The notes below the pieces were generated by a model. The model saw nothing but the letters and a program-made list of their open reading frames with translations. It did no database searches and had not been told where the DNA came from. From Epinephelus fuscoguttatus (Eukaryota; Chordata; Actinopteri; Perciformes; Serranidae), in assembly GCF_011397635.1 (NCBI RefSeq), contig NC_064764.1, positions 43,645,455 through 43,709,454 on the forward strand: 64,000 nucleotides of DNA, given 5' to 3'. Positions 5,955-64,000 of the stretch are shown here, piece after piece (position 1 is the first letter of the stretch; each line of letters opens with the position of its first letter). The position numbers and the translations under genes were made by a program.

Positions 5955-5996
<42 letters not shown>

Positions 5997-11380: not shown

Positions 11381-11419
11381 TCCCTAACGTTTCGCACCGG
11401 TGGTGCTTCCTCAGAGGGA
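11381..11419 (-). ncRNA. hammerhead-ribozyme-like core in family A leader (candidate)
   Basis: On the minus strand: TCCCT, CTGAGGA, A, GCACC-ACC-GGTGC, GAAAC, GTT, AGGGA. CTGANGA and GAAA are the two conserved hammerhead boxes. GCACC/GGTGC is a perfect 5-bp stem II, and TCCCT/AGGGA a perfect 5-bp stem I. Stem III would be only the self-complementary ACGT, as in minimal type I ribozymes proposed to act as dimers. One extra A follows CTGAGGA, so activity is uncertain. Hammerhead motifs are known from Penelope-like elements. Confidence 0.45.
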
Positions 11420-11420
11420 A

Positions 11421-12443: not shown

Positions 12444-13990
12444 GTTAGGGTGAAGGGAGTTGAGTCTCATCGTCGAAGACGATGAGACTAAAAGGCACAG
12501 TCCATCATCCCTCCTCAGAGTCCCATCCCATAGACTAAGGTAGTTTGAGGTCAAAGGTCAAGTCCAAGTGGCCGTAGCGTAGAGTCAATTTGGGGTCAAA
12601 TTAAAAGCTAGAGTCCACATTGTTCTGGTGGGGGTTGGGGTCCGTCAGGGGTGTATTTAGAGTCAGAGGTCACATCCAAGTTGTGGTAGACTGGGGCCAG
12701 TTTGGGTTCAAATTAAGTACTAAAATAAACCTGAGTTTGGTTAGTGTGTGTGTGTGTGCGTGCGCGTGCGTGCACGCGTGTGCGTGTTTTTAGGAGGGTC
12801 AGAGGTCCCTTCCTGGTTGTGGTGGCCTGTAGACAATTAGGGTTCAGATTAAAAAGTCGAGTCCCGTTAGATTTGGTTAGGATTAGGGCCCGTCAGGGGT
12901 GTGGTTAGGGTCAGAGGTGACGTCCAGGTCGTGGTGGAATAGAGTCAAATTGGGTTCCAGTTGAATGCCAGGGTCCTCCTTGGGTTAGGTTTAGGGCTCA
13001 TGACCAGGTCAGGGTTAGAATAGAAATGATAAGGCAGGTCGTGAACAGGTGAGTGGTTAGGATGAGGGCTGAAATGGCACAGTCACCTAGTAAACAATAA
13101 ACATTAGTAAACATCAATAAACAGTAAACATTAATGGTAGAGGGACTGCCATATTGTTTGGTTGGTTCCCTTCCTGATTAGGTCACTGGGTTCCAAAAGT
13201 GTCCAGGAGGTGGCTCCATTCCCTCTCTGTGATTGAGGTCTGGAGGCAGACCAAGGTGAAGGGACAAGGGTCCTGACCGGGTCCTTGGTTAGGTGAAGGC
13301 TGAAATAGTACAGTCACATCAGAAATCATAATAATAAAAAATATGAATATAGCGATCCCAGGAAACCGCATCATTGTTTGGTTTCATATTGTATCCCGAA
13401 GGTGTGGTTGGAGGGTGTGGAGGAGGCGGATGCATGTTGCCTGTGAAATTAAAGGCTGGAGGCAAGCCTAGGTGACGGGACAAGGGTCATGACCCGTAAG
13501 TGTGGTTAGGGTGAGGGCTGAAATCATGCAGTCACATCACAAATCATAATCAAACATAATAAGTGGGAAACCGCATCGTTGTTCGGTTTCCTTTTTGTAT
13601 CCGGGAAGTGTGGTTGGAGAGTGTGGAGGAGGCGGATGCATGTTCCCCGTAAGCTTAAAGGCTGGAGGCAAGCCCAGGTGAAGGGGCAAGGGTCATGGCC
13701 TATGGTTGTGGTTAGGGTGAGGGTCGAAGTTGTCCAGTCTCGTGCTAAATAATAAAACATAAATAATAGAGAGACAACATCATTGTGTGGTTTCATGTTG
13801 TATCTCGGTCATGTGGTGGGAGGGTGTGCAGGAGGCGAATCCATGTCCTCTGTAAAGTCATTGGCTTGGAGGCAGGCCCAGGTGAAGGGGCAAGGATCAT
13901 GAGTAGGCCTCGTGGTTGGGCTCCAGTCTGAAATAATAAGGTGACACAGTAAAACAAGAGAGAATAAACATCATTGTTCGGTTCCATTGT
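12444..13990 (-). repeat. unit 1 3' tail: two families of internal degenerate repeats
   Basis: Part 1 (about 12,540-13,020) consists of roughly 120-bp degenerate repeats. They share words like GTCAGAGGTCA, GTTCAAATTAA and GGTTAGG, and are interrupted by a (GT)n/GCGTGC microsatellite near 12,745-12,787. Part 2 (about 13,157-13,990) has repeats starting at 13157, 13376, 13581, 13785 and 13977, about 190-220 bp apart. Each carries GTTTGGTT or a variant, then GGAGGCGGATSCAT, GGCTTGGAGGCA or a variant, and GGTTAGGGTGAGGG. The last copy runs into the GIY-YIG stop region, so the tail repeats derive from the end of ORF2. Confidence 0.85.
12463..12489. repeat. 12-bp perfect hairpin near the element 3' end
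   Basis: AGTCTCATCGTC (12463-12474), loop GAA, GACGATGAGACT (12478-12489). It lies about 20 nt inside the 3' terminus of the element. Equivalent hairpins sit at the start of the other units; unit 4 has the loop as TTC and unit 3 has lost the left arm. It could be a 3' RNA structure recognised by the element's own RT (inference). Confidence 0.8.
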
Positions 13991-16164
13991 TCATTGTTCA
14001 TTTTCATTAAGGCCGTGTGGTTGGAGTGTGTCCAGGAGGCGGATCCATTTTCTTTCCGCCCTTCTACTACGGTGCGCCGTGGACCAGCGTGGGTTGGTCT
14101 CCAGGACCGTGGTCCTCAAGGCAGTCCAGCCATGTTGTATGAAATGCTGTATGACTGGTATTTGTGTGTTGTGTTGTTTACAAATGTTGTATTTATATTG
14201 GTAAAATCTCACTCTGATTGTGTTACCTGTCTCCAACATACTGCATGTGACAATTGGTGCAAAAATTAAATATACACAGTTTCTGGAACCAATGGTGGTT
14301 CCCCTTGTGTTTTAAAAACATTATTATTAATTGTGTTGCATACCCAGAGGCGGTGCTGAAAAATTCCCGTGTCTTGTGGACTTAGGGTCCCCAGTGGTTT
14401 TAATTTGGCTCTCACTAAATAATCTTGTAAATTTCTGTTCCTTCTGTATGCAGAAATAAGTCTGTGATCCTGGAGCAGCCGAGAATCCCCAATCCCTGGT
14501 AAAAATTGTTCTTCACCTTCCTGATTAGTCTGACTGCAGATGTGGAATAATTGGTAATAATTGGGAGAGGAGAAGAGGCCCAAATAGGTCTGGTCTGGTT
14601 GAAAGTCCTGAATGATTTTCTTAAGAAGGAGCGAGAGTACCCTCTAGTGGCCAAAGTGGAGAATAACACTTTAGTGGCTGATCTGAAATCCTCCTCTCTA
14701 GTGCAGACCCTGTAAAATCTGAGGAGCTGGGATTTAACAATGCCTGAGTAAGTGTGTTTTGGATGATAACTGGCCTTGTGAAGTAGGGAGTGTGTGTCTG
14801 TGTTTTTAAAAAATATTTTGATGTCCAATTTGTGTGTTTGTGAAAAGTTAGGACCGTTGTACGTGGTGGTGTCCAGGAAATCAACAGAGGTGAAATTAAT
14901 AGTGGCTTTTAATTTTATGGAGGGATTATGGTCATTGAGCAGAGTTAAAAATGTATCAAAATCCTCCTGTGGTGGTTCCAGATTCCCCAGATATCATCTA
15001 GATATCTGTAATAATAGAGGGTTTTTGGGAAGCTTGCAGTGCTGTCTGTTCCCATTCAGCCATAAAAATATTAGCATAGGCCGGTGCAAATTTCTTGCCC
15101 ATCGCGTGCCTTTAATCTGCAGGAAAAATTTACCGTTAAACTCAAAGTCATTCCGGGTTAGGTTTATTTGTAACAATTCTAATAATTCCTTGTCCGGTCT
15201 TTTAGAGTCAGGATATTTAAAGAAAATGTTCTTTATGGCTTGAATGCCCTGTGGGATATCAATATTTGTATATAGACTGTCAATGTCCATGGTAAAAGAA
15301 ATGAGTCTGGAGGAACAGAAATTTGTTTTATTTTTTCAATAAAATCATAGGTGTCTTTGATGTAACTTGGGTGTTTGACAGAGAGGGGATTGAGGTAAAA
15401 ATCGAGATACTCTGCTGTAAAATAGGTTTCACTGTTGCAATCTGATACAATGGGTCTGCCAGGAGGGATTTCATGGGGTTTGCTCCATTTGTCAGGCTCC
15501 TTATGGATTTTGGGCAGCATGTAAAAGCGTCTGGGTCTTGGTTCTCCATTGCCAATTAAATATGTTTTTGTTTAGCATTAATAAATTTTTTGTCATACAA
15601 TTTTTGTATGGTATTTTCTACCATGGGGATAGTTTGTAGATAAATAGGTGTTTTGATTTGAGTGTAATAATTTTTATCTGCCAATTGTCTGTGTCCCTCC
15701 CACACATACTGGTCCCGGTCCATTACAACCACTGCGCTACCCTTGTCGGCTGGTTTAATGACTAGAAATTCGTTATTTTGTAAGGACTTTAAAGCATCTG
15801 TTTCAGGTTTAGTAAGATTGGGTTTATTTCTGATTATTTTAAATTTGGTGTCAAAATGTTGTGTATCTTGCTGAATAATTTTCCTGATGTTATCTGGCAG
15901 TTTCGCTAATGGAGGGTCCAGTCAGATTTTGGAGTAAATGGTGGGGGTCGAGTCTCCTCTCCCATCAAAGTAAGCTGCGATCTTTAATTTCCTATGGTAC
16001 TGTTGGAGGTCAAATCTGGTGCTCTGTACCAGATTTTTGTTGCTGCCCCTGGTGGGGATAAACGTGAGACCTTTGCTCAATAAAGAGAACTGTGCTGGGG
16101 ACAGTATACATTTTTTACTCAGGTTGATAACAGTTTTATTCCCCTCCTGAGGTGGCAGGTTCAT
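13991..16164 (-). pseudogene. unit 1 ORF2: Penelope RT plus GIY-YIG, multiply frameshifted
   Basis: ATG at 16164, 8 nt after the ORF1 stop. Order: LLSKGLTFIPTRG, KPADKGSAVVVMDRD, PKIHKEPDKW, PPGRPIVSDCNS, MDIDSLYTNIDIP (motif A), motif B, YRYLDDIWG-type motif C, SYHPKHTYSGI, AYRRNRNLQDYLVRAKL, then the nuclease with QYVGETGNT, IRVR and a C-terminal WIRLLDTLQPHGLNE. In this copy the frame breaks near 15,950, 15,560, 15,340, 15,105 (a missing base in motif B), 14,965, 14,500 and in the linker. The stop is displaced a few codons to 13991. The protein would copy the element RNA into DNA at a nick made by the GIY-YIG domain. Confidence 0.92.
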
Positions 16165-16172
16165 GGGGATTC

Positions 16173-18546
16173 TCAGTTTACCTGCTGGGACCAGTGCTGG
16201 AGTAGCCTAGTCGCTGTGGCATGGGTCCAGTGGATCCGTCCCTCTCCGTGGAGAATTGGCTCCTGAGGAGTTCAGGGATAAACAAATGGTTAGACCTTAT
16301 GTATTTGTTGAGTGCATGTAGGTGCATTTGTTCCCGCTGGGGTAGGCCTCTAGAGAAATTAATGAGAGGTAGCCAGATCTCAGCCCGTGGGAATTTGGTT
16401 TTGGCCACTTTGATGAGCCTCTGCAGGTCTTTTATAGATGTCTGTGTGCTTTGGGTTCTACTGTTTAGGCCCAGAGACAGGATCAGTGTCTCTACCATAG
16501 GGACTGGGTCCATTTTGGAAAGGACGCCCTGTATGTGTCTGAAGGAGGCTCCCGGGAAGCTATCTATCTGCAGGTCCGTTACTTTAAAGGGTGGGAATCT
16601 AGCGACGTTAGAATCACCCAGAATGAGCCATTTTCCCTCACTGCTAGGCTCCAGTTTTTGATTTTGTAGGTGGTGTTAATGTGTCTGGTGGGCCTGCGTG
16701 TGGGTGTGGCTGGTGTTATTGTAGGTTCAAGTGTGGTGTGTGTTGCACCTGTACTGGGTCTGCCAAAGTCAATCTGAGACTGGAAAATGTTTCTGCGAAG
16801 AGGAGTCATGGAAGTACGTGGCAGAAGGTTGATCTCTTCAGGAGAATCTCCCAGGAGCTGGTCGATTTCCTCGGCGGTCAGGTCCATGAGTGCAACCGCG
16901 TCTGAGGGGGAGGGGGGGCGGGCGGCGGCCGTGGGCGGCTGCGACGCCCCAGAGGTTGACCGCGGGAGAGTGGATCTGGGGAGCGCTGGTCCCCGAGGTG
17001 TGGATGCAGGTGGCTGAGGAAGTGAGGTCGTCTGGAGAGCAGGTGAGGAAACCACCTTAGCTGGTCTGGCGCGGAAGGTGCGCCTAGGTCTCTGCTCCTT
17101 GGGAGTGGCAGGAGGATCCAAGGTGAGGACCGGTGATGGGGGAGGGGGAGGAGGAGGAGGAGATGGTGTGGGGGGCATTACCTGGGGGTCCCCAGGCTGT
17201 GGGGGCGGTGAGTGGTCCGGTGTGGCGCCGGCCCGTGCCGTCACGGTGGGTCGTATGGTCTGGGAAAGAGGTAGAGGAGGTGAGGGTGGTGGTGGTGGAG
17301 GCGGGGGCACTGATTGGTGTGCCTGTAGGTGCCGCGGCACCTGTGTGATCACCCGGGACATGTACTAGGGCTGATACCCCCCTGTCAGCCTGTCTGGCTA
17401 TGAGTAGGGCCTCTGTGCGCTCTACTGTGTCAGAAAGGAGCCGTCTACCCAGGTTGCGTCTAGCCCAGTTAGCTGCTATGTCAAACGGCTGTTGCCAGTC
17501 TGGGCTAGGAGGAACAGCTCGTCAATCTGCTGTTCGATAAGCTCTGAGTAATGGTCTCTCAAAATTAGCATGGTGGTCAGCGCCCAATTTTTGGCATTAC
17601 CACAAATCAAGTCAATTGTTTTATCGGTGGGTGTTGCTGGCTTAATAAGTGTGGACAAGGTATGTGTCATCTTATTAATAGTGACAGGGGGGTGGTCTTG
17701 GGACGCATTTTGCAAGTGGTGCATTCCTTTAATGAGTCTGTGGATAATGCGTCCCTTAGTGGTAAAATCTGGGTCGGTGGAGTGTGGAGCCGCCGGTCCC
17801 GGCTGGGTAGCGGCAAGAGTAGGGTCCCTACCCTGTAGTGCGGCGGCTGCGCGCTGGTCCGTGGTGGCGGAGGATCGCCACCAGCGGCCGCTGGGGGCTC
17901 CTCTCCCCCGGGTTCGGGAGTCAAGCTGAGGGCGCTGGTTCTGCTGGAAGGTGGGTTGAGAGCGCCGGTTCTGCTGGAAGGTGGGTTGAGAGCGCTGGTG
18001 CTGCTGGAAGGTGAGTTGAGAGCGCTGGTTCTGCTGGAAGGTGGATTGAGAGCGCTGGTTCCGCTGGAAGGTGGGTTGAGAGCGCTGGTGCTGCTGGAAG
18101 GTGAGTTGAGAGCGCTGATTCCGCTGGAAGGTGGGTTGAGAGCGCCGGTTCTGCTGGAAGGTGGATTGAGAGCGCCGGTTCTGCTGGAAGGTGGGTTGAG
18201 AGCGCTGGTCCTGCTGGAAGGTGGGTTGAGAGCGCCGGTTCTGCTGGAAGGTGGGTTGAGAGCGCTGGTACTGTTGGAAGCGCTGGATCTGGTGGTAAGA
18301 GGGTCCGGGAGGCCCGTACTGCTGCGCGGTCGCCCGAGGCCTGGAACGGGAGGTGGAAGGGAGGCGCATCGCGCCCAGTGGTCTGCGGGTCACTGAAGCA
18401 TATGAGGGTCTGTAGCTGCTGGGCCTGATGTCAAGACGGGTGTCGGTGTCATACCTGCTGGAGGGCCGCGGCTCTGGATACCTGCCCTCTCCGTCGGGCG
18501 CCATAACGCACAGTGGTCCAGCCCTCGTCATCATGCTCGGCCCCAT
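16173..18546 (-). pseudogene. unit 1 ORF1: Q/R/S-repeat, helical and SGNH-hydrolase-like protein, frameshifted
   Basis: From a candidate ATG at 18546 (MGPSMM) the ORF runs through an Arg/Tyr/Ser-rich start (SSRYDTDTRLDIRPSSYRP), about 11 ten-residue repeats like RSQPTFQQNR, and then the helical domain (IIHRLIKGMHHLQ, IKPATPTDKTIDL, LILRDHYSELIE). It is interrupted near 17,500. The next open segments give a poly-Pro linker, MDLTAEEIDQLLGDSPEEIN and the start of the SGNH domain. There a T-run (4 instead of 5 T, about 16,633) shifts the frame. The SGNH remainder (LSLGLNSRTQ, LINFSRGLP) continues to 16,178. The true start codon is uncertain because the 5' frame differs between copies. Confidence 0.88.
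17933..18280 (-). repeat. unit 1 30-bp coding minisatellite
   Basis: About 11-12 tandem copies of a 30-bp unit, encoding on the minus strand ten residues of the type RSQPTFQQNR. Variation between copies is mostly at codons for N/H/D and P/L/S. All six frames are open through it, which generates long spurious plus-strand ORFs. Confidence 0.95.
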
Positions 18547-18648
18547 GGTCGAGATCGGGTTTGTGAGGCAACAAAAATCAACAAAGACTCGGAGCAGAGC
18601 TCTGATTCACTGAATTTTATTGCTCCCACTTTGAAGCACAAAAAAACT

Positions 18649-18682
18649 GCTACGTTTGGTATGGTTGAACCTTCTTCAGGCG
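18649..18682 (-). ncRNA. hammerhead-like motif, unit 1 (core box damaged)
   Basis: Minus strand: GC, CTGAAGA, A, GGT-loop-ACC, then CAAACGTAGC instead of GAAACGTAGC. The missing G12 would abolish hammerhead catalysis if the base is truly absent. The same defect occurs in units 2, 4 and 5. Confidence 0.35.
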
Positions 18683-18746
18683 AATGTTGCTAACGCTAAC
18701 GAGCTATGCTAATGCTAACGAGCTATGCTACAGCGTGCGTGTCGAG

Positions 18747-18803
18747 ATGGCGTCCAAGGCCAAAAGAAGGAAATGGAGTGGAGCGGAGGAGGAAGTAGTG
18801 TGA
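18747..18803 (+). CDS. 18-codon plus-strand micro-ORF in the leader, antisense to the element
   Basis: GAGATGG-context ATG encoding MASKAKRRKWSGAEEEVV and a TGA. Basic patch followed by a W-x3-EEE motif. In unit 2 the corresponding sequence has lost exactly three bases and stays in frame; in unit 4 indels destroy it. It might be a relic of a captured first exon (the start of Myb/SANT-like domains often looks similar). Could be chance. Confidence 0.25.
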   Translation: MASKAKRRKWSGAEEEVV

Positions 18804-19429
18804 CAGGTCATGGGTCACCGTCTTAAAGGGAAACTCCACTGCCGCTGTATGATATTGTTATTTTTAAAGACATAAATATTAAATGAATTTATTACTCGTA
18901 TCTTTCTGTGGTAGTGTCTTTTTGGATTAATTTTTAAAAAATTATATATATTTTTATATTTAATGAATTTGTATTTTAAGATTGTCCAATTGTGGTTATG
19001 AATTTAATTCTGTGGTTGTCTCTTTGTTAGATTAATTTTTGAATTTTTCAGTTGTATTTTAGTATTGTCCAATTGTAATTAATTAATTAGATTAATTTTT
19101 GAATTTTTAAATTGTATTTTAGTATTGTCCAATTGTAATTAATTAATTAATTAGATTAATTTTTGAATTTTTAAATTGTATTTTAGTGTTGTCACATTGT
19201 AATCCATTATAAAATTGTACATTAAATTCTGTGGTTGTGTGTTTATTGGGTTAATTTTAAATTTTTAAATTGTATTTTAAGTGTTGTCCAATTGTAATTA
19301 GTGTTGGAATTATGAATTGAATTTCCTGGTGTCATGAATTGTTAATATAAACCACTCCTTCTCTGGGCGTGGACAGTAGGTCCCACAGCAGTACAGGCAT
19401 AAATTCAATCATAAACAAGAACATTGAAC

Positions 19430-19690
19430 ATGACATCCTATCATGGGCTGATGCCAACATTATCCTATCATATGCAAATGCAAAATCATCCTAACCTGGG
19501 TGAATGCAAACATCCTCATGTAATGTGTAAGTGTAAACATAAACATCATCCAATCATGGACGAGTGCCAACATCATCATAAAACCAGATCAATAAAATCT
19601 GGGAGGGTCTGTGCAAGCATTATCACATACACTCATAAACCATTATACCCCAATAGCATCCTGTTATGTGTTAGGGTGTGGCCCAAATAG
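19430..19690 (+). CDS. 86-codon His/Cys-rich ORF in the leader (probably minisatellite-derived)
   Basis: ATG at 19430 to a stop at 19690. It encodes tracts such as CKHPHVMCKCKHKHHP and CQHHHK, arising from a degenerate minisatellite of about 28 bp (AACATCATCCTATCATGGG-like). The same ORF is present in all seven units with only a few changes (unit 6 loses the last codons by one indel). Conservation may simply reflect the youth of the array. No homology recognised. Confidence 0.3.
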   Translation: MTSYHGLMPTLSYHMQMQNHPNLGECKHPHVMCKCKHKHHPIMDECQHHHKTRSIKSGRVCASIITYTHKPLYPNSILLCVRVWPK

Positions 19691-19770
19691 GTTCTTTATA
19701 AATAAACACACAATATCCAAATTAAGAGGAAGGGAAGGGAAACCGAGAGGCGAGGAGAGGCACGGGCTTG

Positions 19771-21308
19771 GTTAGGGTGAAGGGAGTTGAGTCTCATCGT
19801 CGAAGACGATGAGACTAAAAGGCACAGTCCATCATCCCTCCTCAGAGTCCCATCCCATAGACTAAGGTAGTTTGAGGTCAAAGGTCAAGTCCAAGTGGCC
19901 GTAGCGTAGAGTCAATTTGGGGTCAAATTAAAAGCTAGAGTCCACATTGTTCTGGTGGGGGTTGGGGTCCGTCAGGGTGTATTTAGAGTCAGAGGTCACA
20001 TCCAAGTTGTGGTAGACTGGGGCCAGTTTGGGTTCAAATTAAGTACTAAAATAAACCTGAGTTTGGTTAGTGTGTGGGTGTGTGCGTGCGGCGTGCGTGC
20101 AGCTTTTAGGAGGGTCAGAGGTCCCTTCCTGGTTGTGGTGGCCTGTAGACAATTAGGGTTCAGATTAAAAAGTCGAGTCCGTTAGATTTGGTTAGGATTA
20201 GGGCCCGTCAGGTGTGGTTAGGGTCAGAGGTGACGTCCAGGTCGTGGTGGAATAGAGTCAAATTGGGTTCCAGTTGAATGCCAGGGTCCTCCTTGGGTTA
20301 GGTTTAGGGCTCATGACCAGGTCAGGGTTAGAATAGAAATGATAAGGCAGGTCGTGAACAGGTGAGTGGTTAGGATGAGGGCTGAAATGGCACAGTCACC
20401 TAGTAAACAATAAACATTAGTAAACATCAATAAACAGTAAACATTAATGGTAGAGGGACTGCCATATTGTTTGGTTGGTTCCCTTCCTGATTAGGTCACT
20501 GGGTTCCAAAAGTGTCCAGGAGGTGGCTCCATTCCCTCTCTGTGATTGAGGTCTGGAGGCAGACCAAGGTGAAGGGACAAGGGTCCTGACCGGGTCCTTG
20601 GTTAGGGTGAAGGCTGAAATAGTACAGTCACATCAGAAATCATAATAAGAAAAATATGAATATATAGCGATCCCAGGAAACCGCATCATTGTTTGGTTTC
20701 ATATTGTATCCCGAAGGTGTGGTTGGAGGGTGTGGAGGAGGCGGATGCATGTTGCCTGTGAAATTAAAGGCTGGAGGCAAGCCCAGGTGGGACAAGGGTC
20801 ATGACCCGTAAGTGTGGTTAGGGTGAGGCTGAAATCATGCAGTCACATCACAAATCATAATCAAACATAATAAGTGGGAAACCGCATCGTTGTTCGGTTT
20901 CCTTTTTGTATCCGGGAAGTGTGGTTGGAGAGTGTGGAGGAGGCGGATGCATGTTCCCCGTAAGCTTAAAGGCTGGAGGCAAGCCCAGGTGAAGGGGCAA
21001 GGGTCATGGCCTATGGTTGTGGTTAGGGTGAGGGTCGAAGTTGTCCAGTCTCGTGCTAAATAATAAAACATAAATAATAGAGAGACAACATCATTGTGTG
21101 GTTTCATGTTGTATCTCGGTCATGTGGTGGGAGGGTGTGCAGGAGGCGAATCCATGTCCTCTGTAAAGTCATTGGCTTGGAGGCAGGCCCAGGTGAAGGG
21201 GCAAGGATCATGAGTAGGCCTCGTGGTTGGGCTCCAGTCTGAAATAATAAGGTGACACAGTAAAACAAGAGAGAATAAACATCATTGTTCGGTTCCATTG
21301 TTCATTGT
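19771..21308 (-). repeat. unit 2 3' tail repeats
   Basis: Same layout as unit 1. The (GT)n/GCGTGC tract near 20,070-20,102 is clearly shorter than in other units. Confidence 0.85.
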
Positions 21309-23482
21309 TCATTTTTCATTAAGGCCGTGTGGTTGGAGTGTGTCCAGGAGGCGGATCCATTTTCTTTCCGCCCTTCTACGTTGCGCCGTGGACCAGCGTG
21401 GGTTGGTCTCCAGGACCGTGGTCCTCAAGGCAGTCCAGCCATGTTGTATGAAATGCTGTATGACTGGTATTTGTGTGTTGTGTTGTTTACAAATGTTGTA
21501 TTTATATTGGTAAAATCTCACTCTGATTGTGTTACCTGTCTCTCCAACATACTGCATGTGACAATTGGTGCAAAAAATTAAATATACACAGTTTCTGGAA
21601 CCAATGGTGGTTCCCCTTGTGTTTAAAAACATTATTATTAATTGTGTTGCATACCCAGAGGCGGTGCTGAAAAAATTCCCCGTGTCTTGTGGACTTAGGG
21701 TCCCCCAGTGGTTTTAATTTGGCTCTCACTAAATAATCTTGTAAATTTCTGTTCCTTCTGTATGCAGAAATAAGTCTGTGATCCTGGAGCAGCCGAGAAT
21801 CCCCAATCCTGGTAAAAATTGTTCTTCACCTTCCTGATTAGTCTGACTGCAGATGTGGAATAATTGGTAATAATTGGGAGAGGAGAAGAGGCCCAAATAG
21901 GTCTGGTCTGGTTGAAAGTCCTGAATGATTTTCTTAAGAAGGAGCGAGAGTACCCTCTAGTGGCCAAAGTGGAGAATAACACTTTAGTGGCTGATCTGAA
22001 ATCCTCCTCTCTAGTGCAGACCCTGTAAAATCTGAGGAGCTGGGATTTAACAATGCCTGAGTAAGTGTGTTTTGGATGATAACTGGCCTTGTGAAGTAGG
22101 GAGTGTGTGTCTGTGTTTTTAAAAAATATTTTGATGTCCAATTTGTGTGTTTGTGAAAAGTTAGGACCTTTGTACGTGGTGGTGTCCAGGAAATCAACAG
22201 AGGTGAAATTAATAGTGGCTTTTAATTTTATGGAGGGATTATGGTCATTGAGCAGAGTTAAAAATGTATCAAAATCCTCCCTGTGGTGGTTCCAGATTCC
22301 CCAGATATCATCTAGATATCTGTAATAATAGAGGGGTTTTTTGGGGGAAGCTTGCAGTGCTGTCTGTTCCCATTCAGCCATAAAAATATTAGCATAGGCC
22401 GGTGCAAATTTCTTGCCCATCGCGTGCCTTTAATCTGCAGGAAAAATTTACCGTTAAACTCAAAGTCATTCCGGGTTAGGTTTATTTGTAACAATTCTAA
22501 TAATTCCTTGTCCGGTCTTTTAGAGTCAGGATATTTAAAGAAAATGTTCTTTATGGCTTGAATGCCCTGTGGGATATCAATATTTGTATATAGACTGTCA
22601 ATGTCCATGGTAAAAGAAATGAGTCTGGAGGAACAGAAATTTGTTTTATTTTTCAATAAAATCATAGGTGTCTTTGATGTAACTTGGGTGTTTGACAGAG
22701 AGGGGATTGAGGTAAAAATCGAGATACTCTGCTGTAAAATAGGTTTCACTGTTGCAATCTGATACAATGGGTCTGCCAGGAGGGATTTCATGGGGTTTGC
22801 TCCATTTGTCAGGCTCCTTATGGATTTTGGGCAGCATGTAAAAGCGTCTGGGTCTTGGTTCTCCATTGCCAATTAAATATGTTTTTGTTTAGCATTAATA
22901 AATTTTTGTCATACAATTTTTGTATGGTATTTTCTACCATGGGGATAGTTTGTAGATAAATAGGTGTTTTGATTTGAGTGTAATAATTTTTATCTGCCAA
23001 TTGTCTGTGTCCTCCCACACATACTGGTCCCGGTCCATTACAACCACTGCGCTACCCTTGTCGGCTGGTTTAATGACTAGAAATTCGTTATTTTGTAAGG
23101 ACTTTAAAGCATCTGTTTCAGGTTTAGTAAGATTGGGTTTATTTCTGATTATTTTAAATTTGGTGTCAAAATGTTGTGTATCTTGCTGAATAATTTTCCT
23201 GATGTTATCTGGCAGTTTCGCTAATGGAGGGGTCCAGTCAGATTTTGGAGTAAATGGTGGGGGGTCGGAGTCTCCTCTCCCATCAAAGTAAGCTGCGATC
23301 TTTAATTTCCTATGGTACTGTTGGAGGTCAAATCTGGTGCTCTGTACCAGATTTTTGTTGCTGCCCCTGGTGGGGATAAACGTGAGACCTTTGCTCAATA
23401 AAGAGAACTGTGCTGGGGACAGTATACATTTTTTACTCAGGTTGATAACAGTTTTATTCCCCTCCTGAGGTGGCAGGTTCAT
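21309..23482 (-). pseudogene. unit 2 ORF2: Penelope RT plus GIY-YIG, frameshifted
   Basis: Open from 23482 through KPADKGSAVVVMDRDQYVW to about 23,010, where one C is missing. A 241-codon segment, 22,420-21,695, covers motif B end, YRYLDDIWGIW, SYHPKHTYSGI and the linker. The nuclease segment 21,632-21,309 is complete to GLNEK and the stop. Breaks: about 23,010, 22,890 (shared A-run deletion), 22,640, 22,420, 21,800 and 21,625. Confidence 0.92.
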
Positions 23483-23490
23483 GGGGATTC

Positions 23491-30769: not shown

Positions 30770-30777
30770 GGGGATTC

Positions 30778-38073: not shown

Positions 38074-38081
38074 GGGGATTC

Positions 38082-45346: not shown

Positions 45347-45354
45347 GGGGATTC

Positions 45355-50498: not shown

Positions 50499-52669
50499 TC
50501 ATGTTTCATTAAGGCCGTGTGGTTGGAGTGTGTCCAGGAGGCGGATCCATTTTCTTTCCGCCCTTCTACGTTGCGCCGTGGACCAGCGTGGGTTGGTCTC
50601 CAGGACCGTGGTCCTCAAGGCAGTCCAGCCATGTTGTATGAAATGCTGTATGACTGGTATTTGTGTGTTGTGTTGTTTACAAATGTTGTATTTATATTGG
50701 TAAAATCTCACTCTGATTGTGTTACCTGTCTCTCCAACATACTGCATGTGACAATTGGTGCAAAAAATTAAATATACACAGTTTCTGGAACCAATGGTGG
50801 TTCCCCTTGTGTTTAAAAACATTATTATTAATTGTGTTGCATACCCAGAGGCGGTGCTGAAAAAATTCCCCGTGTCTTGTGGACTTAGGGTCCCCCAGTG
50901 GTTTTAATTTGGCTCTCACTAAATAATCTTGTAAATTTCTGTTCCTTCTGTATGCAGAAATAAGTCTGTGATCCTGGAGCAGCCGAGAATCCCCAATCCC
51001 CTGGTAAAAATTGTTCTTCACCTTCCTGATTAGTCTGACTGCAGATGTGGAATAATTGGTAATAATTGGGAGAGGAGAAGAGGCCCAAATAGGTCTGGTC
51101 TGGTTGAAAGTCCTGAATGATTTTCTTAAGAAGGAGCGAGAGTACCCTCTAGTGGCCAAAGTGGAGAATAACACTTTAGTGGCTGATCTGAAATCCTCCT
51201 CTCTAGTGCAGACCCTGTAAAATCTGAGGAGCTGGGATTTAACAATGCCTGAGTAAGTGTGTTTTGGATGATAACTGGCCTTGTGAAGTAGGGAGTGTGT
51301 GTCTGTGTTTTTAAAAAATATTTTGATGTCCAATTTGTGTGTTTGTGAAAAGTTAGGACCTTTGTACGTGGTGGTGTCCAGGAAATCAACAGAGGTGAAA
51401 TTAATAGTGGCTTTTAATTTTATGGAGGATTATGGTCATTGAGCAGAGTTAAAAATGTATCAAAATCCTCCTGTGGTGGTTCCAGATTCCCCAGATATCA
51501 TCTAGATATCTGTAATAATAGAGGGTTTTTGGGAAGCTTGCAGTGCTGTCTGTTCCCATTCAGCCATAAAAATATTAGCATAGGCCGGTGCAAATTTCTT
51601 GCCCATCGCCGTGCCTTTAATCTGCAGGAAAAATTTACCGTTAAACTCAAAGTCATTCCGGGTTAGGTTTATTTGTAACAATTCTAATAATTCCTTGTCC
51701 GGTCTTTTAGAGTCAGGATATTTAAAGAAAATGTTCTTTATGGCTTGAATGCCCTGTGGGATATCAATATTTGTATATAGACTGTCAATGTCCATGGTAA
51801 AATGAAATGAGTCTGGAGGAACAGAAATTTGTTTTATTTTTTCAATAAAATCATAGGTGTCTTTGATGTAACTTGGGTGTTTGACAGAGAGGGGATTGAG
51901 GTAAAAATCGAGATACTCTGCTGTAAAATAGGTTTCACTGTTGCAATCTGATACAATGGGTCTGCCAGGAGGGATTTCATGGGGTTTGCTCCATTTGTCA
52001 GGCTCCTTATGGATTTTGGGCAGCATGTAAAAGCGTCTGGGTCTTGGTTCTCCATTGCCAATTAAATATGTTGTTTGTTTAGCATTAATAAATTTTTTGT
52101 CATAGAAGTTTTGTATGGTATTTTCTACCATGTGGATATTTTGTAGATAAATAGTAGTTTTGAATTGAGTGTAATAATGTATATCTGCCAATTGTCTGTG
52201 TCCTCCCACACATACTGGTCCCGGTCCATTACAACCACTGCGCTACCCTTGTCGGCTGGTTTAATGACTAGAAATTCGTTATTTTGTAAGGACTTTAAAG
52301 CATCTGTTTCAGGTTTAGTAAGATTGGGTTTATTTCTGATTATTTTAAATTTGGTGTCAAAATGTTGTGTATCTTGCTGAATAATTTTCCTGATGTTATC
52401 TGGCAGTTTCGCTAATGGAGGTCCAGTCAGATTTTGGAGTAAATGGTGGGGTCGGAGTCTCCTCTCCCATCAAAGTAAGCTTCGATCTTTAATTTCCTAT
52501 GGTACTGTTGGAGGTCAAATCTGGTGCTCTGTACCAGATTTTTGTTGCTGCCCCTGGTGGGGATAAACGTGAGACCTTTGCTCAATAAAGAGAACTGTGC
52601 TGGGGACAGTATACATTTTTTACTCAGGTTGATAACAGTTTTATTCCCCTCCTGAGGTGGCAGGTTCAT
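50499..52669 (-). pseudogene. unit 6 ORF2: Penelope RT plus GIY-YIG, best RT core frame
   Basis: One 235-codon frame (52,209-51,502) runs through HRQLADIHYYTQF, NAKQTTYLIGNGEPRPRRFY, PKIHKEPDKW, PPGRPIVSDCNS, MDIDSLYTNIDIP, GTAMGKKFAPAYANIFMAEW and on to the motif C border. It passes the site near 52,070 where all other copies are broken. The downstream segments 51,333-50,722 (thumb to GIY-YIG start) and 50,822-50,499 (nuclease) are each open. Remaining breaks: about 52,440, 52,205, 51,520-51,480, 51,430, 51,000 and 50,815. Confidence 0.93.
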
Positions 52670-52677
52670 GGGGATTC

Positions 52678-56261: not shown

Positions 56262-57805
56262 GTTAGGGTGAAGGGAGTTGAGTCTCATCGTCGAAGACGA
56301 TGAGACTAAAAGGCACAGTCCATCATCCCTCCTCAGAGTCCCATCCCATAGACTAAGGTAGTTTGAGGTCAAAGGTCAAGTCCAAGTGGCCGTAGCGTAG
56401 AGTCAATTTGGGGTCAAATTAAAAGCTAGAGTCCACATTGTTCTGGTGGGGGTTGGGGTCCGTCAGGGGTGTATTTAGAGTCAGAGGTCACATCCAAGTT
56501 GTGGTAGACTGGGGCCAGTTTGGGTTCAAATTAAGTACTAAAATAAACCTGAGTTTGGTTAGTGTGTGTGTGTGCGTGCGTGCGCGTGCGTGCACGCGTG
56601 TGCGTGTTTTTAGGGGGGTCAGAGGTCCCTTCCTGGTTGTGGTGGCCTGTAGACAATTAGGGTTCAGATTAAAAGTCGAGTCCCGTTAGATTTGGTTAGG
56701 ATTAGGGCCCGTCAGGGGTGTGGTTAGGGTCAGAGGTGACGTCCAGGTCGTGGTGGAATAGAGTCAAATTGGGTTCCAGTTGAATGCCAGGGTCCTCCTT
56801 GGGTTAGGTTTAGGGCTCATGACCAGGTCAGGGTTAGAATAGAAATGATAAGGCAGGTCGTGAACAGGTGAGTGGTTAGGATGAGGGCTGAAATGGCACA
56901 GTCACCTAGTAAACAATAAACATTAGTAAACATCAATAAACAGTAAACATTAATGGTAGAGGGACTGCCATATTGTTTGGTTGGTTCCCTTCCTGATTAG
57001 GTCACTGGGTTCCAAAAGTGTCCAGGAGGTGGCTCCATTCCTCTCTGTGATTGAGGTCTGGAGGCAGACCAAGGTGAAGGGACAAGGGTCCTGACCGGGT
57101 CCTTGGTTAGGGTGAAGGCTGAAATAGTACAGTCACATCAGAAATCATAATAATAAAAAAATATGAATATAGCGATCCCAGGGAAACCGCATCATTGTTT
57201 GGTTTCATATTGTATCCCGAAGGTGTGGTTGGAGGGTGTGGAGGAGGCGGATGCATGTTGCCTGTGAAATTAAAGGCTGGAGGCAAGCCTAGGTGACGGT
57301 ACAAGGGTCATGACCCGTAAGTGTGGTTAGGTGAGGGCTGAAATCATGCAGTCACATCACAAATCATAATCAAACATAATCAGTTGGAAACCGCATCGTT
57401 GTTCGGTTTCCTTTTTGTATCCGGGAAGTGTGGTTGGAGTGTGGAGGAGGCGGATGCATGTTCCCGCTTAAAGGCTGGAGGCAAGCCCAGGTGAAGGGCA
57501 AGGGTCATGGCCTATGGTTGTGGTTAGGGTGAGGGTCGGTTGTCCAGTCGTGCTAAATAATAAAACATAAATAATAGAGAGACAACATCATTGTGTGGTT
57601 TCATGTTGTATCTCGGTCATGTGGTGGGAGGGTGTGCAGGAGGCGAATCCATGTCCTCTGTAAAGTCATTGGCTTGGAGGCAGGCCCAGGTGAAGGGGCA
57701 AGGATCATGAGTAGGCCTCGTGGTTGGGCTCCAGTCTGAAATAATAAGGTGACACAGTAAAACAAGAGAGAATAAACATCATTGTTCGGTTCCATTGTTC
57801 ATTGT
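56262..57805 (-). repeat. unit 7 3' tail repeats
   Basis: As in unit 1, with small deletions near 57,465 and 57,540. Confidence 0.85.
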
Positions 57806-59976
57806 TCATTTTTCATTAAGGCCGTGTGGTTGGAGTGTGTCCAGGAGGCGGATCCATTTTCTTTCCGCCCTTCTACGTTGCGCCGTGGACCAGCGTGGGT
57901 TGGTCTCAGGACCGTGGTCTCAAGGCAGTCCAGCCATGTTGTATGAAATGCTGTATGACTGGTATTTGTGTGTTGTGTTGTTTACAAATGTTGTATTTAT
58001 ATTGGTAAAATCTCACTCTGATTGTGTTACCTGTCTCTCCAACATACTGCATGTGACAATTGGTGCAAAAAATTAAATATACACAGTTTCTGGAACCAAT
58101 GGTGGTTCCCCCTTGTGTTTTAAAAACATTATTATTAATTGTGTTGCATACCCAGAGGCGGTGCTGAAAAAATTCCCCGTGTCTTGTGGACTTAGGGTCC
58201 CCCAGTGGTTTTAATTTGGCTCTCACTAAATAATCTTGTAAATTTCTGTTCCTTCTGTATGCAGAAATAAGTCTGTGATCCTGGAGCAGCCGAGAATCCC
58301 AATCCTGGTAAAAATTGTTCTTCACCTTCCTGATTAGTCTGACTGCAGATGTGGAATAATTGGTAATAATTGGGAGAGGAGAAGAGGCCCAAATAGGTCT
58401 GGTCTGGTTGAAAGTCCTGAATGATTTTCTTAAGAAGGAGCGAGAGTACCCTCTAGTGGCCAAAGTGGAGAATAACACTTTAGTGGCTGATCTGAAATCC
58501 TCCTCTCTAGTGCAGACCCTGTAAAATCTGAGGAGCTGGGATTTAACAATGCCTGAGTAAGTGTGTTTTGGATGATAACTGGCCTTGTGAAGTAGGGAGT
58601 GTGTGTCTGTGTTTTTAAAAAATATTTTGATGTCCAATTTGTGTGTTTGTGAAAAGTTAGGACCTTTGTACGTGGTGGTGTCCAGGAAATCAACAGAGGT
58701 GAAATTAATAGTGGCTTTTAATTTTATGGAGGGATTATGGTCATTGAGCAGAGTTAAAAATGTATCAAAATCCTCCTGTGGTGGTTCCAGATTCCCCAGA
58801 TATCATCTAGATATCTGTAATAATAGAGGGTTTTGGGAAGCTTGCAGTGCTGTCTGTTCCCATTCAGCCATAAAAATATTAGCATAGGCCGGTGCAAATT
58901 TCTTGCCCATCGCCGTGCCTTTAATCTGCAGGAAAAATTTACCGTTAAACTCAAAGTCATTCCGGGTTAGGTTTATTTGTAACAATTCTAATAATTCCTT
59001 GTCCGGTCTTTTAGAGTCAGGATATTTAAAGAAAATGTTCTTTATGGCTTGAATGCCCTGTGGGATATCAATATTTGTATATAGACTGTCAATGTCCATG
59101 GTAAAAAGAAATGAGTCTGGAGGAACAGAAATTTGTTTTATTTTTTCAATAAAATCATAGGTGTCTTTGATGTAACTTGGGTGTTTGACAGAGAGGGGAT
59201 TGAGGTAAAAATCGAGATACTCTGCTGTAAAATAGGTTTCACTGTTGCAATCTGATACAATGGGTCTGCCAGGAGGGATTTCATGGGGTTTGCTCCATTT
59301 GTCAGGCTCCTTATGGATTTTGGGCAGCATGTAAAAGCGTCTGGGTCTTGGTTCTCCATTGCCAATTAAATATGTTTTTGTTTAGCATTAATAAATTTTT
59401 TGTCATACAATTTTTGTATGGTATTTTCTACCATGGGGATAGTTTGTAGATAAATAGGTGTTTTGATTTGAGTGTAATAATTTTTATCTGCCAATTGTCT
59501 GTGTCCCTCCCACACATACTGGTCCCGGTCCATTACAACCACTGCGCTACCCTTGTCGGCTGGTTTAATGACTAGAAATTCGTTATTTTGTAAGGACTTT
59601 AAAGCATCTGTTTCAGGTTTAGTAAGATTGGGTTTATTTCTGATTATTTTAAATTTGGTGTCAAAATGTTGTGTATCTTGCTGAATAATTTTCCTGATGT
59701 TATCTGGCAGTTTCGCTAATGGAGGGGTCCAGTCAGATTTTGGAGTAAATGGTGGGGGGTCGGAGTCTCCTCTCCCATCAAAGTAAGCTGCGATCTTTAA
59801 TTTCCTATGGTACTGTTGGAGGTCAAATCTGGTGCTCTGTACCAGATTTTTGTGCTGCCCCTGGTGGGGATAAACGTGAGACCTTTGCTCAATAAAGAGA
59901 ACTGTGCTGGGGACAGTATACATTTTTTACTCAGGTTGATAACAGTTTTATTCCCCTCCTGAGGTGGCAGGTTCAT
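57806..59976 (-). pseudogene. unit 7 ORF2: Penelope RT plus GIY-YIG, frameshifted
   Basis: A 243-codon frame (58,637-57,906) joins the thumb (SYHPKHTYSGI, ATRGYSRSF), linker (AYRRNRNLQDYLVRAKL) and the GIY-YIG domain (CVYLIFCTNCHMQYVGETGN) without interruption, losing frame only near 57,905-57,920. Motifs A and B are open together in 59,330-58,803. Other breaks: about 59,852 (missing T near the N-terminus), 59,390 (shared A-run deletion), 59,105-59,150 and 58,830. Confidence 0.92.
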
Positions 59977-59984
59977 GGGGATTC

Positions 59985-62336
59985 TCAGTTTACCTGCTGG
60001 GACCAGTGCTGGAGTAGCCTAGTCGCTGTGGCATGGGTCCAGTGGATCCCGTCCCTCTCCGTGGAGAATTGGCTCCTGAGGAGTTCAGGGATAAACAAAT
60101 GGTTAGACCTTATGTATTTGTTGAGTGCATGTAGGTGCATTTGTTCCGCTGGGGTAGGCCTCTAGAGAAATTAATGAGAGGTAGCCAGATCTCAGCCCGT
60201 GGAATTTGGTTTTGGCCACTTTGATGAGCCTCTGCAGGTCTTTTATAGATGTCTGTGTGCTTTGGGTTCTACTGTTTAGGCCCAGAGACAGGATCAGTGT
60301 CTCTACCATAGGGACTGGGTCCATTTTGGAAAGGACGCCCTGTATGTGTCTGAAGGAGGCTCCCGGGAAGCTATCTATCTGCAGGTCCGTTACTTTAAAG
60401 GGTGGGAATCTAGCGTTAGAATCACCCAGAATGAGCCATTTTCCCTCACTGCTAGGCTCCAGTTTTTGATTTTGTAGGTGGTGTTAATGTGTCTGGTGGG
60501 CCTGCGTGTGGGTGTGGCTGGTGTTATTAGGTTCAAGTGTGGTGTGTGTTGCACCTGTACTGGGTCTGCCAAAGTCAATCTGAGACTGGAAAATGTTTCT
60601 GCGAAGAGGAGTCATGGAAGTACGTGGCAGAAGGTTGATCTCTTCAGGAGAATCTCCCAGGAGCTGGTCGATTTCCTCGGGCGGTCAGGTCCATGAGTGC
60701 AACCGCGTCTGAGGGGGAGGGGCGGGCGGCGGCCGTGGGCGGCTGCGACGCCCCAGAGGTTGACCGCGGGAGAGTGGATCTGGGGAGCGCTGGTCCCCGA
60801 GGTGTGGATGCAGGTGGCTGAGGAAGTGAGGTCGTCTGGAGAGCAGGTGAGGAAACCACCTTAGCTGGTCTGGCGCGGAAGGTGCGCCTAGGTCTCTGCT
60901 CCTTGGGAGTGGCAGGAGGATCCAAGGTGAGGACCGGTGATGGGGGAGGGGGAGGAGGAGATGGTGTGGGGCATTACCTGGGGGTCCCCAGGCTGTGGGG
61001 GCGGTGAGTGGTCCGGTGTGGCGCCGGCCCGTGCCGTCACGGTGGGTCGTATGGTCTGGGAAAGAGGTAGAGGAGGTGAGGGTGGTGGTGGTGGAGGCGG
61101 GGGCACTGATTGGTGTGCCCCTGTAGGTGCCGCGGCACCTGTGTGATCACCCGGGACATGTACTAGGGCTGATACCCCCCTGTCAGCCTGTCTGGCTATG
61201 AGTAGGGCCTCTGTGCGCTCTACTGTGTCAGAAAGGAGCCGTCTACCCAGGTTGCGTCTAGCCCAGTTAGCTGCTATGTCATACGGCTGTTGCCAGTCTG
61301 GGCTAGGAGGCGAACAGCTCAATCTGCTGTTCGATAAGCTCTGAGTAATGGTCTCTCAAAATTAGCATGGTGGTCAGCGCCCAATTTTTGGCATTACCAC
61401 AAATCAAGTCAATTGTTTTATCGGTGGGTGTTGCTGGCTTAATAAGTGTGGACAAGGTATGTGTCATCTTATTAATAGTGACAGGGGGGTGGTCTTGGGA
61501 CGCATTTTGCAAGTGGTGCATTCCTTTAATGAGTCTGTGGATAATGCGCACCTTAGTGGTAAAATCTGGGTCGGTGGAGTGTGGAGCCGCCGGTCCCGGC
61601 TGGGTAGCGGCAAGAGTAGGGTCCCTACCCTGTAGTGCGGCGGCTGCGCGCTGGTCCGTGGTGGCGGAGGATCGCCACCAGCGGCCGCTGGGGGCTCCTC
61701 TCCCCCGGGTTCGGGAGTCAAGCTGAGGGCGCTGGTTCTGCTGGAAGGTGGGTTGAGAGCGCCGGTTCTGCTGGAAGGTGGGTTGAGAGCGCTGGTGCTG
61801 CTGGAAGGTGAGTTGAGAGCGCTGGTTCTGCTGGAAGGTGGATTGAGAGCGCTGGTTCCGCTGGAAGGTGGGTTGAGAGCGCTGGTGCTGCTGGAAGGTG
61901 AGTTGAGAGCGCTGATTCCGCTGGAAGGTGGGTTGAGAGCGCCGGTTCTGCTGGAAGGTGGATTGAGAGCGCCGGTTCTGCTGGAAGGTGGGTTGAGAGC
62001 GCTGGTCCTGCTGGAAGGTGGGTTGAGAGCGAGAGCGCTGGTACTGTTGGAAGCGCTGGATCTGGTGGTAAGAGGGTACGGGAGGCCCGTACTGCTGCGG
62101 GCGGTCGCCCCGAGGCCTGGAACGGGAGGTGGAAGGGGAGGGCGCATCGCGCCCCAGTGGTCTGCGGGTCACTGAAGCATATGAGGGTCTGTAGCTGCTG
62201 GGCCTGATGTCAAGGACGGGTGTCGGTGTCATACCTGCTGGAGGGCCGCGGCTCTGGATACCTGCCCTCTCCGTCCGGGCGCCATAACGCACAGTGGTCC
62301 AGCCCTCGTCATCATGCTCGCCCCATGGTCGAGATC
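59985..62336 (-). pseudogene. unit 7 ORF1, frameshifted
   Basis: A 350-codon frame (62,355-61,303) contains the repeats (one fewer) and most of the helical domain. It ends where bases are missing in the IDELF-encoding stretch near 61,318. The linker and acidic motif follow in other frames (an extra G near 60,681). The SGNH start is shifted by the 4-T run and by a loss near 60,413. Confidence 0.88.
61729..62050 (-). repeat. unit 7 30-bp coding minisatellite, contracted
   Basis: One 30-bp repeat fewer than the other units. The deletion junction reads GAGAGCGAGAGCGC near 62,025-62,040. Confidence 0.93.
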
Positions 62337-63557
62337 GGGGTTTGTGAGGCAACAAAAATCAACAAAAAAGACTCCGGAGCAGAGCTCTGATTCACTGAAT
62401 TTTATTGCTCCCACTTTGAAGCACAAAAAAAACTGCTACGTTTCGGTATGGTTGAACCTTCTTCAGGCGAATGTTGCTAACGCTAACGAGCTATGCTAAT
62501 GCTAACGAGCTATGCTACAGCGTGCGTGTCGAGATGGCGTCCAAGGCCAAAAGAAGGAAATGGAGTGGAGCGGAGGAGGAAGTAGTGTGACAGGTCATGG
62601 GTCACCGTCTTAAAGAAACTCCACTGCCGCTGTATGATATTGTTATTTTTAAAGACATAAATATTAAATGAATTTATTACTCGTATCTTTCTGTGGTAGT
62701 GTCTTTTTTGGATTAATTTTTTAAAAAAAATTATATATATTTTTTATATTTAATGAATTTGTATTTTAAGATTGTCCAATTGTGGTTATGAATTTAATTC
62801 TGTGGTTGTCTCTTTGTTAGATTAATTTTTGAATTTTTCAGTTGTATTTTAGTATTGTCCAATTGTAATTAATTAATTAGATTAATTTTTGAATTTTTAA
62901 ATTGTATTTTAGTATTGTCCAATTGTAATTAATTAATTAATTAGATTAATTTTTGAATTTTTAAATTGTATTTTAGTGTTGTCACATTGTAATCCATTAT
63001 AAAATTGTACATTAAATTCTGTGGTTGTGTGTTTATTGGGTTAATTTTAAAATTGTATTTTAAGTGTTGTCCAATTGTAATTAGTGTTGGAATTATGAAT
63101 TGAATTTCCTGGTGTCATGAATTGTTAATATAAACCACTCCTTCTCTGGGCGTGGACAGTAGGTCCCACAGCAGTACAGGCATAAATTCAATCATAAACA
63201 AGAACATTGAACATGACATCCTATCATGGGCTGATGCCAACATTATCCTATCATATGCAAATGCAAAATCATCCTAACCTGGGTGAATGCAAACATCCTC
63301 ATGTAATGTGTAAGTGTAAACATAAACATCATCCAATCATGGACGAGTGCCAACATCATCATAAAACCAGATCAATAAAATCTGGGAGGGTCTGTGCAAG
63401 CATTATCACATACACTCATAAACCATTATACCCCAATAGCATCCTGTTATGTGTTAGGGTGTGGCCCAAATAGGTTCTTTATAAATAAACACACAATATC
63501 CAAATTAAGAGGGGAAGGGGAAGGGAAACCGAGAGACGAGGGAGAGGCACGGGCTTG
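62337..63557 (-). other. unit 7 5' leader
   Basis: Same layout as unit 1, with a short deletion in the last AT-rich repeat near 63,045. His/Cys ORF at 63213-63473. Confidence 0.7.
62435..62468 (-). ncRNA. hammerhead-ribozyme-like core, unit 7 (both boxes present, candidate)
   Basis: Minus strand: GC, CTGAAGA (62466-62460), A, GGT-8-nt loop-ACC, GAAAC (62444-62440), GTA, GC. Stem II is 3 bp, stem I at least 2 bp, and stem III only the palindrome ACGT. Same position relative to ORF1 and same box order as in family A at 11,381-11,419. Weaker stems than family A, so activity is doubtful. Confidence 0.4.
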
Positions 63558-64000
63558 GTTAGGGTGAAGGGAGTTGAGTCTCATCGTCGAAGACGATGAG
63601 ACTAAAAGGCACAGTCCATCATCCCTCCTCAGAGTCCCATCCCATAGACTAAGGTAGTTTGAGGTCAAAGGTCAAGTCCAAGTGGCCGTAGCGTAGAGTC
63701 AATTTGGGGTCAAAATAAAGCTAGAGTCCACATTGTTCTGGTGGGGTTGGGGTCCGTCAGGGTGTATTTAGAGTCAGAGGTCACATCCAAGTTGTGGTAG
63801 ACTGGGGCCAGTTTGGGTTCAAATTAAGTACTAAAATAAACCTGAGTTTGGTTAGTGTGTGTGTGTGTGTGCTGCGTGCGTGCAGCGTGGCGTGTTTTTA
63901 GGAGGGTCAGAGGTCCCTTCCTGGTTGTGGTGGCCTGTAGACAATTAGGGTTCAGATTAAAAAGTCGAGTCCCGTTAGATTTGGTTAGGATTAGGGCCCG
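63558..64000 (-). mobile_element. array unit 8, partial (first 443 bp of 3' tail)
   Basis: Begins with GTTAGGGTGAAGGGAG and the intact 12-bp hairpin, then part 1 of the tail repeats. Cut by the window end, so the array continues to the right. Confidence 0.97.

Follow-up and report, generated by a model that had tools for sequence, protein, structure and literature searches.

Head-to-tail Penelope-like elements at a chromosome end of the fish Epinephelus fuscoguttatus: a probable telomeric stack

A Macro-Array of Complete Elements at a Chromosome End

The stretch of Epinephelus fuscoguttatus DNA analyzed here (64,000 nucleotides, hereafter the window) is C13:43645455-43709454 in an assembly of 1.047 Gb in 26 contigs, and contains a head-to-tail macro-array of retrotransposons of one family (family A), labeled Penelope-like elements (PLEs) on domain order and motifs. 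The locus is best explained as a telomeric stack of PLEs that prime on chromosome 3′ ends, resembling the Athena/Terminon elements but bearing an endonuclease, in a vertebrate; judged from sequence, the probability of this explanation is about 0.75. It is carried by direct observations: location, orientation, a constant 3′ end with differing proximal flanks, 5′ truncation, TTAGGG joints, and one empty site.

Self-BLAST of the window gives direct repeats beginning at 12444, 19771, 27047, 34358, 41645, 48948, 56262, and 63558, with unit lengths (U1-U7) of 7327, 7276, 7311, 7287, 7303, 7314, and 7296 bp. The window holds seven complete units, and an eighth (U8) is cut by the window end. Farther along the contig are the full U8 and a 5′-truncated U9 (900 bp), so that the array on C13 amounts to eight full units and a truncated ninth. 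An earlier note on this DNA had described at least seven complete units at a near-constant spacing of 7276-7327 bp, without host DNA between them, and each of these statements stands: the measured lengths agree, one and the same junction, small noise aside, is found at every one of the window's seven joints as well as at U8/U9, and no other DNA, such as host sequence pointing to segmental duplication, was found at the boundary. Such a tandem or partial tandem layout is characteristic of PLEs. The other copies and tandem loci for which the note proposed a search exist as solitary copies at other chromosome ends and a second family A array on C2.

Three features escaped that first reading: the position at a chromosome end, the adjoining element of a second family (B), and the telomere cap. 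The array lies directly distal to a full-length PLE of family B, whose distal side abuts the array's 3′ end. Distal to U9, a mixture of TTAGG and AAGAAG extends for ~3.6 kb up to the end of C13 at 43,720,812, where the final bases resemble an adapter remnant. This tract is a miscalled telomere repeat, CCCTAA being known to be miscalled as CTTCTT in nanopore reads (as described in PMC9414165). The earlier view of the locus as a satellite of full retrotransposons is retained insofar as there is a homogenized tandem repeat (near-identical units with array-specific bases) whose units are complete elements; its orientation, its TTAGGG 3′ terminus, and the presence of further copies at chromosome ends set it apart from ordinary satellites as a telomere-attachment structure.

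Distribution of 3′ Ends and Telomere Tracts in the Genome

Element 3′ ends of families A, B, D, and G were searched for in the assembly. The 24-base 3′ end of family A (TTAGGG plus hairpin, up to 3 mismatches, whole assembly) has 21 matches: nine on C13, four on C2, two on C20, and one each on C4, C12, C14, C16, C19, and C24. None of the 21 is farther than 77 kb from a contig end, nine ends being represented, and such a zone at 50 ends makes up ~0.4% of the genome. The orientation is likewise uniform, with the 5′ side facing the telomere in 21/21 cases (plus on right ends, minus on left). A reversed-pattern control gave seven matches, and the 3′ end of U5 was missed because of an indel; with an earlier probe, some short and weak internal matches were also obtained on C16 and C5. 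Most solitary copies are 5′-truncated.

Other families show similar placement. Six of the seven family B matches are at right ends in the same orientation (the 3′ end of the copy in the window recurs at the ends of C2, C7, C10, C12, and C18), and all four family D matches are at the right ends of C2 and C19, again in that orientation. Family G has nine 3′ ends at ~6.8-kb spacing in a second macro-array (C5:392907-449000) and one each at the left ends of C8, C9, and C24. The C5 array is followed by a telomere-like tract (identified by eye) inside the contig at ~449 kb; its interior position beside a PLE array suggests a mis-oriented scaffold piece. Matches to the family B reverse transcriptase (RT), of which 48 were tabulated from at least 95 (89 of 542 candidates having been scored), include 17 within 100 kb of an end, on nine ends, and all 17 have the 5′ side facing the telomere. 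The remaining RT matches near ends, by reading, belong to the copies on C7 and C22, of which they are additional pieces with unchanged orientation.

Among the 40 of 50 contig ends that were read (mitochondrial contig excluded; the right ends of C11, C14-C17, and C21-C25 left out), a telomere-like tract closes the left ends of C3, C8, C9, C14, C16, C18, C22, and C24, and the right ends of C2, C7, C13, C19, C20, and (by eye) C10. PLE sequence is nearby at 15/15 of the telomere tracts found. Twenty left ends were also compared over their first 10 kb for protein matches to A or B, which are present in four of six telomere-bearing ends vs. none of the 14 others; the two telomere-bearing ends without such a match (C8 and C16) carry PLE 3′ ends. 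Telomerase_RBD exons, indicating TERT, are present at C17:41.03 Mb, above the cut-off. A separate repeat containing GTTTCCAAGCCAGAAACATGTGG, possibly centromeric in acrocentric chromosomes, occurs at C1R, C3R, C5R, C21L, and other ends, which have no telomere tract.

Joints and the Empty Site

Thirteen family A joints were aligned, 12 to non-A DNA and one unit-to-unit on C2. The same element base starts all 12 non-A joints, where the 3′ terminus seen in U1 recurs, and the proximal flanks differ: only four flank pairs match at all, over 30-112 bp, partly as fragments of family E. At many joints unrelated flanks have at most GG(G) ahead of TTAGGG; the C2 array sits on a TTAGGG tract. As in Terminons, the 3′ end is complementary to the telomere repeat, and the truncated 5′ ends are followed by TTAGG-type sequence and, in several cases, by the 3′ end of another family.

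An empty site is available for family B. The left end of C16 matches C13 at 99.2% over 1610 columns up to position 5438 of the window, reads ...TTTTTGGGTT, and then continues without B; at the same position C13 reads TTAGGGTTAGGG and then enters B.

Six or more distinct TTAGG-type 3′ ends were distinguished, and an endonuclease is seen in families A, B, and G. Families C, D, E, F, and H are probably PLEs as well, judging from the 3′ end and, for some, a hammerhead-like core. In A, C, D, E, and G, the 3′-terminal RNA folds into a hairpin close to the final CCTAA.

Anatomy of the Family A Unit

Along the minus strand, the units begin with a hammerhead-like core, followed by ORF1, which includes a 30-bp minisatellite and, C-terminally, an SGNH-like domain; next come RT, a GIY-YIG endonuclease, and a 3′ region of ~1.6 kb with degenerate 206-bp subrepeats. 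Features of the array in the window are as follows.

12444..64000, minus strand: family A macro-array, U1-U7 and the start of U8 (self-comparison), running on past the window to U9 and the telomere tract
12445..12489, minus strand: 3′ terminus of U1, TTAGGG (12445-12450) and 12-bp hairpin (12463-12489) (sequence)
13198..13902, minus strand: degenerate subrepeats of ~206 bp in the 3′ region (repeat analysis of the window)
14269..16181, minus strand: RT and endonuclease region of U1, frame broken, limits approximate (tblastn with B)
16181..18606, minus strand: ORF1 region of U1, with SGNH-like domain (~16181-16675) and 30-bp minisatellite (17927-18280) (ORF, alignment, tblastn)
62440..62466, minus strand: hammerhead-like core of U7 (pattern match)

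The fold of 12444-12520 has a z-score of -3.45, and none of 200 shuffles is equally stable. RT segments are open in U2 (21698-22429) and U6 (51505-52242), and part of the RT-endonuclease region is open in U7 (57909-58802). In the C14 copy of family A, an open frame of 663 aa includes the motif sets of both RT and endonuclease (7156-9144 of the extracted C14 stretch); together with the Pfam matches in family B, this provides the PLE order of RT followed by a downstream GIY-YIG domain. The possibility that frameshifts mark long-dead elements was not adopted: the breaks vary by unit, and the segments that were compared with B remain open in one unit or more.

The hammerhead-like core (CTGANGA...GAAAC) is present in B, U3 (altered), U7, and extracted copies elsewhere in the genome. 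U7 and U8, the two C2 units, and C14 have it intact; in U1-U6 it is altered (a missing base or other change), and this alteration may be real or a systematic error. The pattern has 10 matches in the window vs. a mean of 0.99 in shuffles; seven of the 10 represent a plus-strand stretch repeated within the ORF1 region of the units, away from the ribozyme position. Rfam matches in the window to mir-297 and kin were discarded as simple repeats.

Element B and the Proximal DNA

Family B is organized on the same plan as the family A units. Its distal limit is the start of the array by definition.

5437..5448, plus strand: joint between proximal DNA and B, two TTAGGG units and then the 3′ end of B (sequence; C16 comparison)
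5443..12443, minus strand: element B, same orientation as the array, 3′ end at ~5443 (joint sequence)
6520..6918, minus strand: GIY-YIG endonuclease segment (Pfam GIY-YIG, 24.7 bits, above the cut-off of 22.6)
6714..8895, minus strand: RT, two open segments in different frames (6714-8147, 7909-8895) (Pfam RVT_1; tblastn to array units)
8763..11096, minus strand: ORF1, 778 aa stop to stop, with putative C-terminal SGNH-like domain (8763-9299) (ORF; AlphaFold2 and Foldseek)
11389..11414, minus strand: hammerhead-like core upstream of ORF1 (pattern; no Rfam recognition)

The RT matches Pfam RVT_1 at E 1e-5 and 25.8 bits, below the cut-off of 29.6; a search of Protein Data Bank sequences returned a single weak match (E 0.34), and AlphaFold2 gave no usable fold (predicted local distance difference test [pLDDT] 32.1). 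ORF1 is unnamed by Pfam and NCBIfam. Its C-terminal domain (AlphaFold2 model, pLDDT 60.6) has PAF-acetylhydrolase as top Foldseek matches (E 5.5e-4, probability 1.00), and this modest model suggests an SGNH-like fold.

Proximal to B, positions 211-829 and 3830-5438 are common to the left end of C16 at 98-99%, a subtelomeric duplication. An intronless open frame on the plus strand (2392-3198) encodes a SET domain (Pfam E 1.5e-8) and resembles KMT5/SUV4-20; near-identical copies lie near the right end of C9 and the left end of C16, with exon-like pieces on C19 and C2. A very short family A stub is also present at C13:43644039 (539-610 of the extracted stretch), and its 3′ hairpin sequence recurs inverted just after it.

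Differences Between Units

Pairwise substitution differences between units are 0.43-1.97%. The private substitutions (n = 273) comprise 75 transitions and 198 transversions, with seven CpG transitions, and 46-73% of private differences per unit lie within 10 bp of another vs. 3-18% expected; the divergent C14 copy differs from U1 by 325 transitions and 188 transversions. Given this transversion excess and clustering, most unit differences, including private frameshifts, look like long-read consensus error, and the true divergence among the units is accordingly low and poorly measurable. At 22 sites the two C2 units carry the same base, different from that of C13; thus, the arrays are distinguished by bases of their own. 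Of the 289 two-state sites in the eight C13 units, 26 are common to at least two units.

Twelve family A attachments were compared: nine are <1.5 kb, one is nearly full (C14, 7140 bp), and two are arrays (two of the lengths by eye). Erosion, besides early-stopped copying, could account for short copies.

Proposed Mechanism and Alternatives

We propose that the element RNA ends in a hairpin and then a short telomere-repeat complement (...CCCUAAC), and that the RT primes on the G-rich-strand 3′ end of the chromosome, or on a broken end with slight GGG(TT) homology. Priming of this kind would leave every copy with its 3′ end centromere-ward and its 5′ end tip-ward. Copying would frequently stop early, yielding 5′-truncated copies. 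Telomeric repeats would be added on top, and the next element, of the same or another family, would attach; the layered sequence is observed, and what made it is our supposition. The array itself would be chiefly the product of recombination at the chromosome end, which multiplied a full-length copy or dimer already attached there through unequal sister exchange or break-induced or rolling-circle copying, which would keep units near-identical and repeat one junction. Both the family A array on C13 and the family G array on C5 are capped by a telomere-like tract.

Several observations weigh against this proposal, which draws on the sequence of one genome assembly. The elements carry an endonuclease, which priming on ends does not need. 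At several family A joints, including that of U1, there is no telomere repeat beyond the element's own TTAGGG, and the 3′ hairpin is weak or lacking in B and F, as it also is in H. Rfam does not recognize a hammerhead, either in the window as a whole or in two short stretches taken separately. The clade also occurs away from ends: 31 of the 48 tabulated RT matches are internal (seven facing the nearer end and 24 away from it, six of the latter in the C5 array), and on C1 a TTAGGG-like stretch is likewise found close to the 3′ side of an internal relative. One family B stub (C6:29483329) lies inside a contig and consists of ~75 bp, then TTAGGG repeats and other DNA. In the family G search, 15 of 27 matches are internal, with 2-3 mismatches, vs. 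one in the control; these were not counted, being taken for another repeat or distant kin. Finally, the sites shared among units show no neighbor order, which disfavors simple unequal exchange. As a separate observation, the C6 stub with its TTAGGG repeats looks as if a break had been healed.

Targeting of ends could instead be the work of the endonuclease, with GIY-YIG nicking TTAGGG arrays and the element inserting inside them in the manner of SART/TRAS, without priming on free ends. The domain is present in A, B, and the C14 copy, the C2 array rests on telomere repeats, and an anole PLE is reported to nick its own ORF-pLTR junction (PMC11167929); we nevertheless regard such homing as unlikely, as at the empty site C13 has other sequence in place of the DNA that runs on in C16, as for terminal attachment, and the single orientation and the near-absence of telomeric homology in many flanks also argue against it. 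Still less probable is that a few old insertions at chromosome ends were spread by segmental duplication or exchange, with no targeting of ends. Subtelomeric DNA is certainly common to different ends, both as the C13/C16 segments and as the SET-domain frame at the ends of C13, C9, and C16, but the 12 family A joints combine one element end with flanks that are different or match only briefly, truncation points vary, and exchange alone would not place the joint at TTAGGG in several families. An incorrect copy number or placement in the assembly is the least credible alternative: nanopore-type errors, miscalled telomeres, and the seemingly mis-oriented C5 would be in keeping with it, whereas private changes and minisatellite lengths differ by unit, showing that these are not copies of one string, and the arrays on C2 and C5 and the closure of contig ends in telomere-like tracts also speak against it.

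For the growth of the array, rather than its attachment, the strongest competitor is serial addition, in which each full unit would be copied from RNA onto the last by template jumping or from multi-unit transcripts. The lack of telomere repeats at unit junctions and the star-like differences are compatible with this, and tandem PLE transcripts are described in the anole (PMC11167929). Recombination is favored by the one junction at all C13 and C2 unit joints, the array-specific bases, and the preponderance of attachments <1.5 kb; with only 3/12 attachments full or nearly so, we infer that eight full reverse-transcription runs in a row are less likely than recombination. Serial addition is thus possible though clearly the less probable route. 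Among the origins suggested in the earlier note, unequal crossing-over after an initial dimer still appears a likely growth step, and template jumping is kept as a rival only.

Comparison With Known Systems

Endonuclease-deficient PLEs prime on exposed chromosome ends; complementary telomere repeats form part of their 3′ end, and their truncated 5′ end adjoins telomere repeats (as described in PMC6431247, PMC3846280). The family A and B elements resemble the Athena/Terminon elements in a PLE-type RT at chromosome ends, a 5′ side that faces the telomere, a 3′ end complementary to the telomere repeat, telomere-capped 5′ truncation, head-to-tail arrays, and accessory GDSL/SGNH ORFs (according to PMC6431247, PMC3846280, PMC5408684). 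Unlike those elements, in which the RT has no linked endonuclease and the hammerhead is 3′-terminal, beside the telomere complement, A and B have GIY-YIG after the RT, a core upstream of ORF1, and another hairpin at the 3′ end; the hosts also differ, being bdelloid rotifers (with relatives in fungi, protists, and plants) rather than fish. Lacking two Terminon features, absence of the endonuclease and a 3′ hammerhead, the fish elements are not classed as Terminons.

In Drosophila, HeT-A, TART, and TAHRE are likewise head-to-tail copies attached by the 3′ end, and have their 5′ side toward the tip. They prime on chromosome ends (as outlined in PMC9693754), but are non-LTR elements that replace telomerase, whereas the present elements are PLE-type and the host, with TERT exons and telomere-like tracts, is not one without telomerase. 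The Tx1 class is also non-LTR. SART/TRAS and Tx1-1_ACar of the anole, the latter being the listed vertebrate telomere-associated retrotransposon, are similar in being retrotransposons in telomere repeats (as listed in PMC10088271), and differ in being non-LTR elements, not PLEs. PAc (Poseidon) of the anole lizard shares RT with GIY-YIG, tandem copies, and a hammerhead motif; nicking and internal initiation are shown for it in vitro, and no telomeric placement is mentioned in the portions of the report consulted (PMC11167929). In the open-licence literature no report of PLEs at vertebrate telomeres was found, an absence that is weak evidence, and the word Penelope does not occur in the main text of the fish genome papers and telomere review searched by term.

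Implications

If the proposal is correct, endonuclease-bearing PLEs at the chromosome ends of a TERT-bearing vertebrate would mean that prior loss of the endonuclease is not required, and the fish would offer a vertebrate setting for retrotransposon-primed chromosome healing. More speculatively, a guild of several PLE families may heal broken or shortened ends by priming, with the terminal DNA of many chromosomes built jointly with telomerase and possibly serving as back-up end maintenance; we consider this doubtful at present, and, if true, it would parallel in a vertebrate what is described for rotifers and Drosophila. The macro-arrays suggest a route from a whole retrotransposon to a telomeric satellite.

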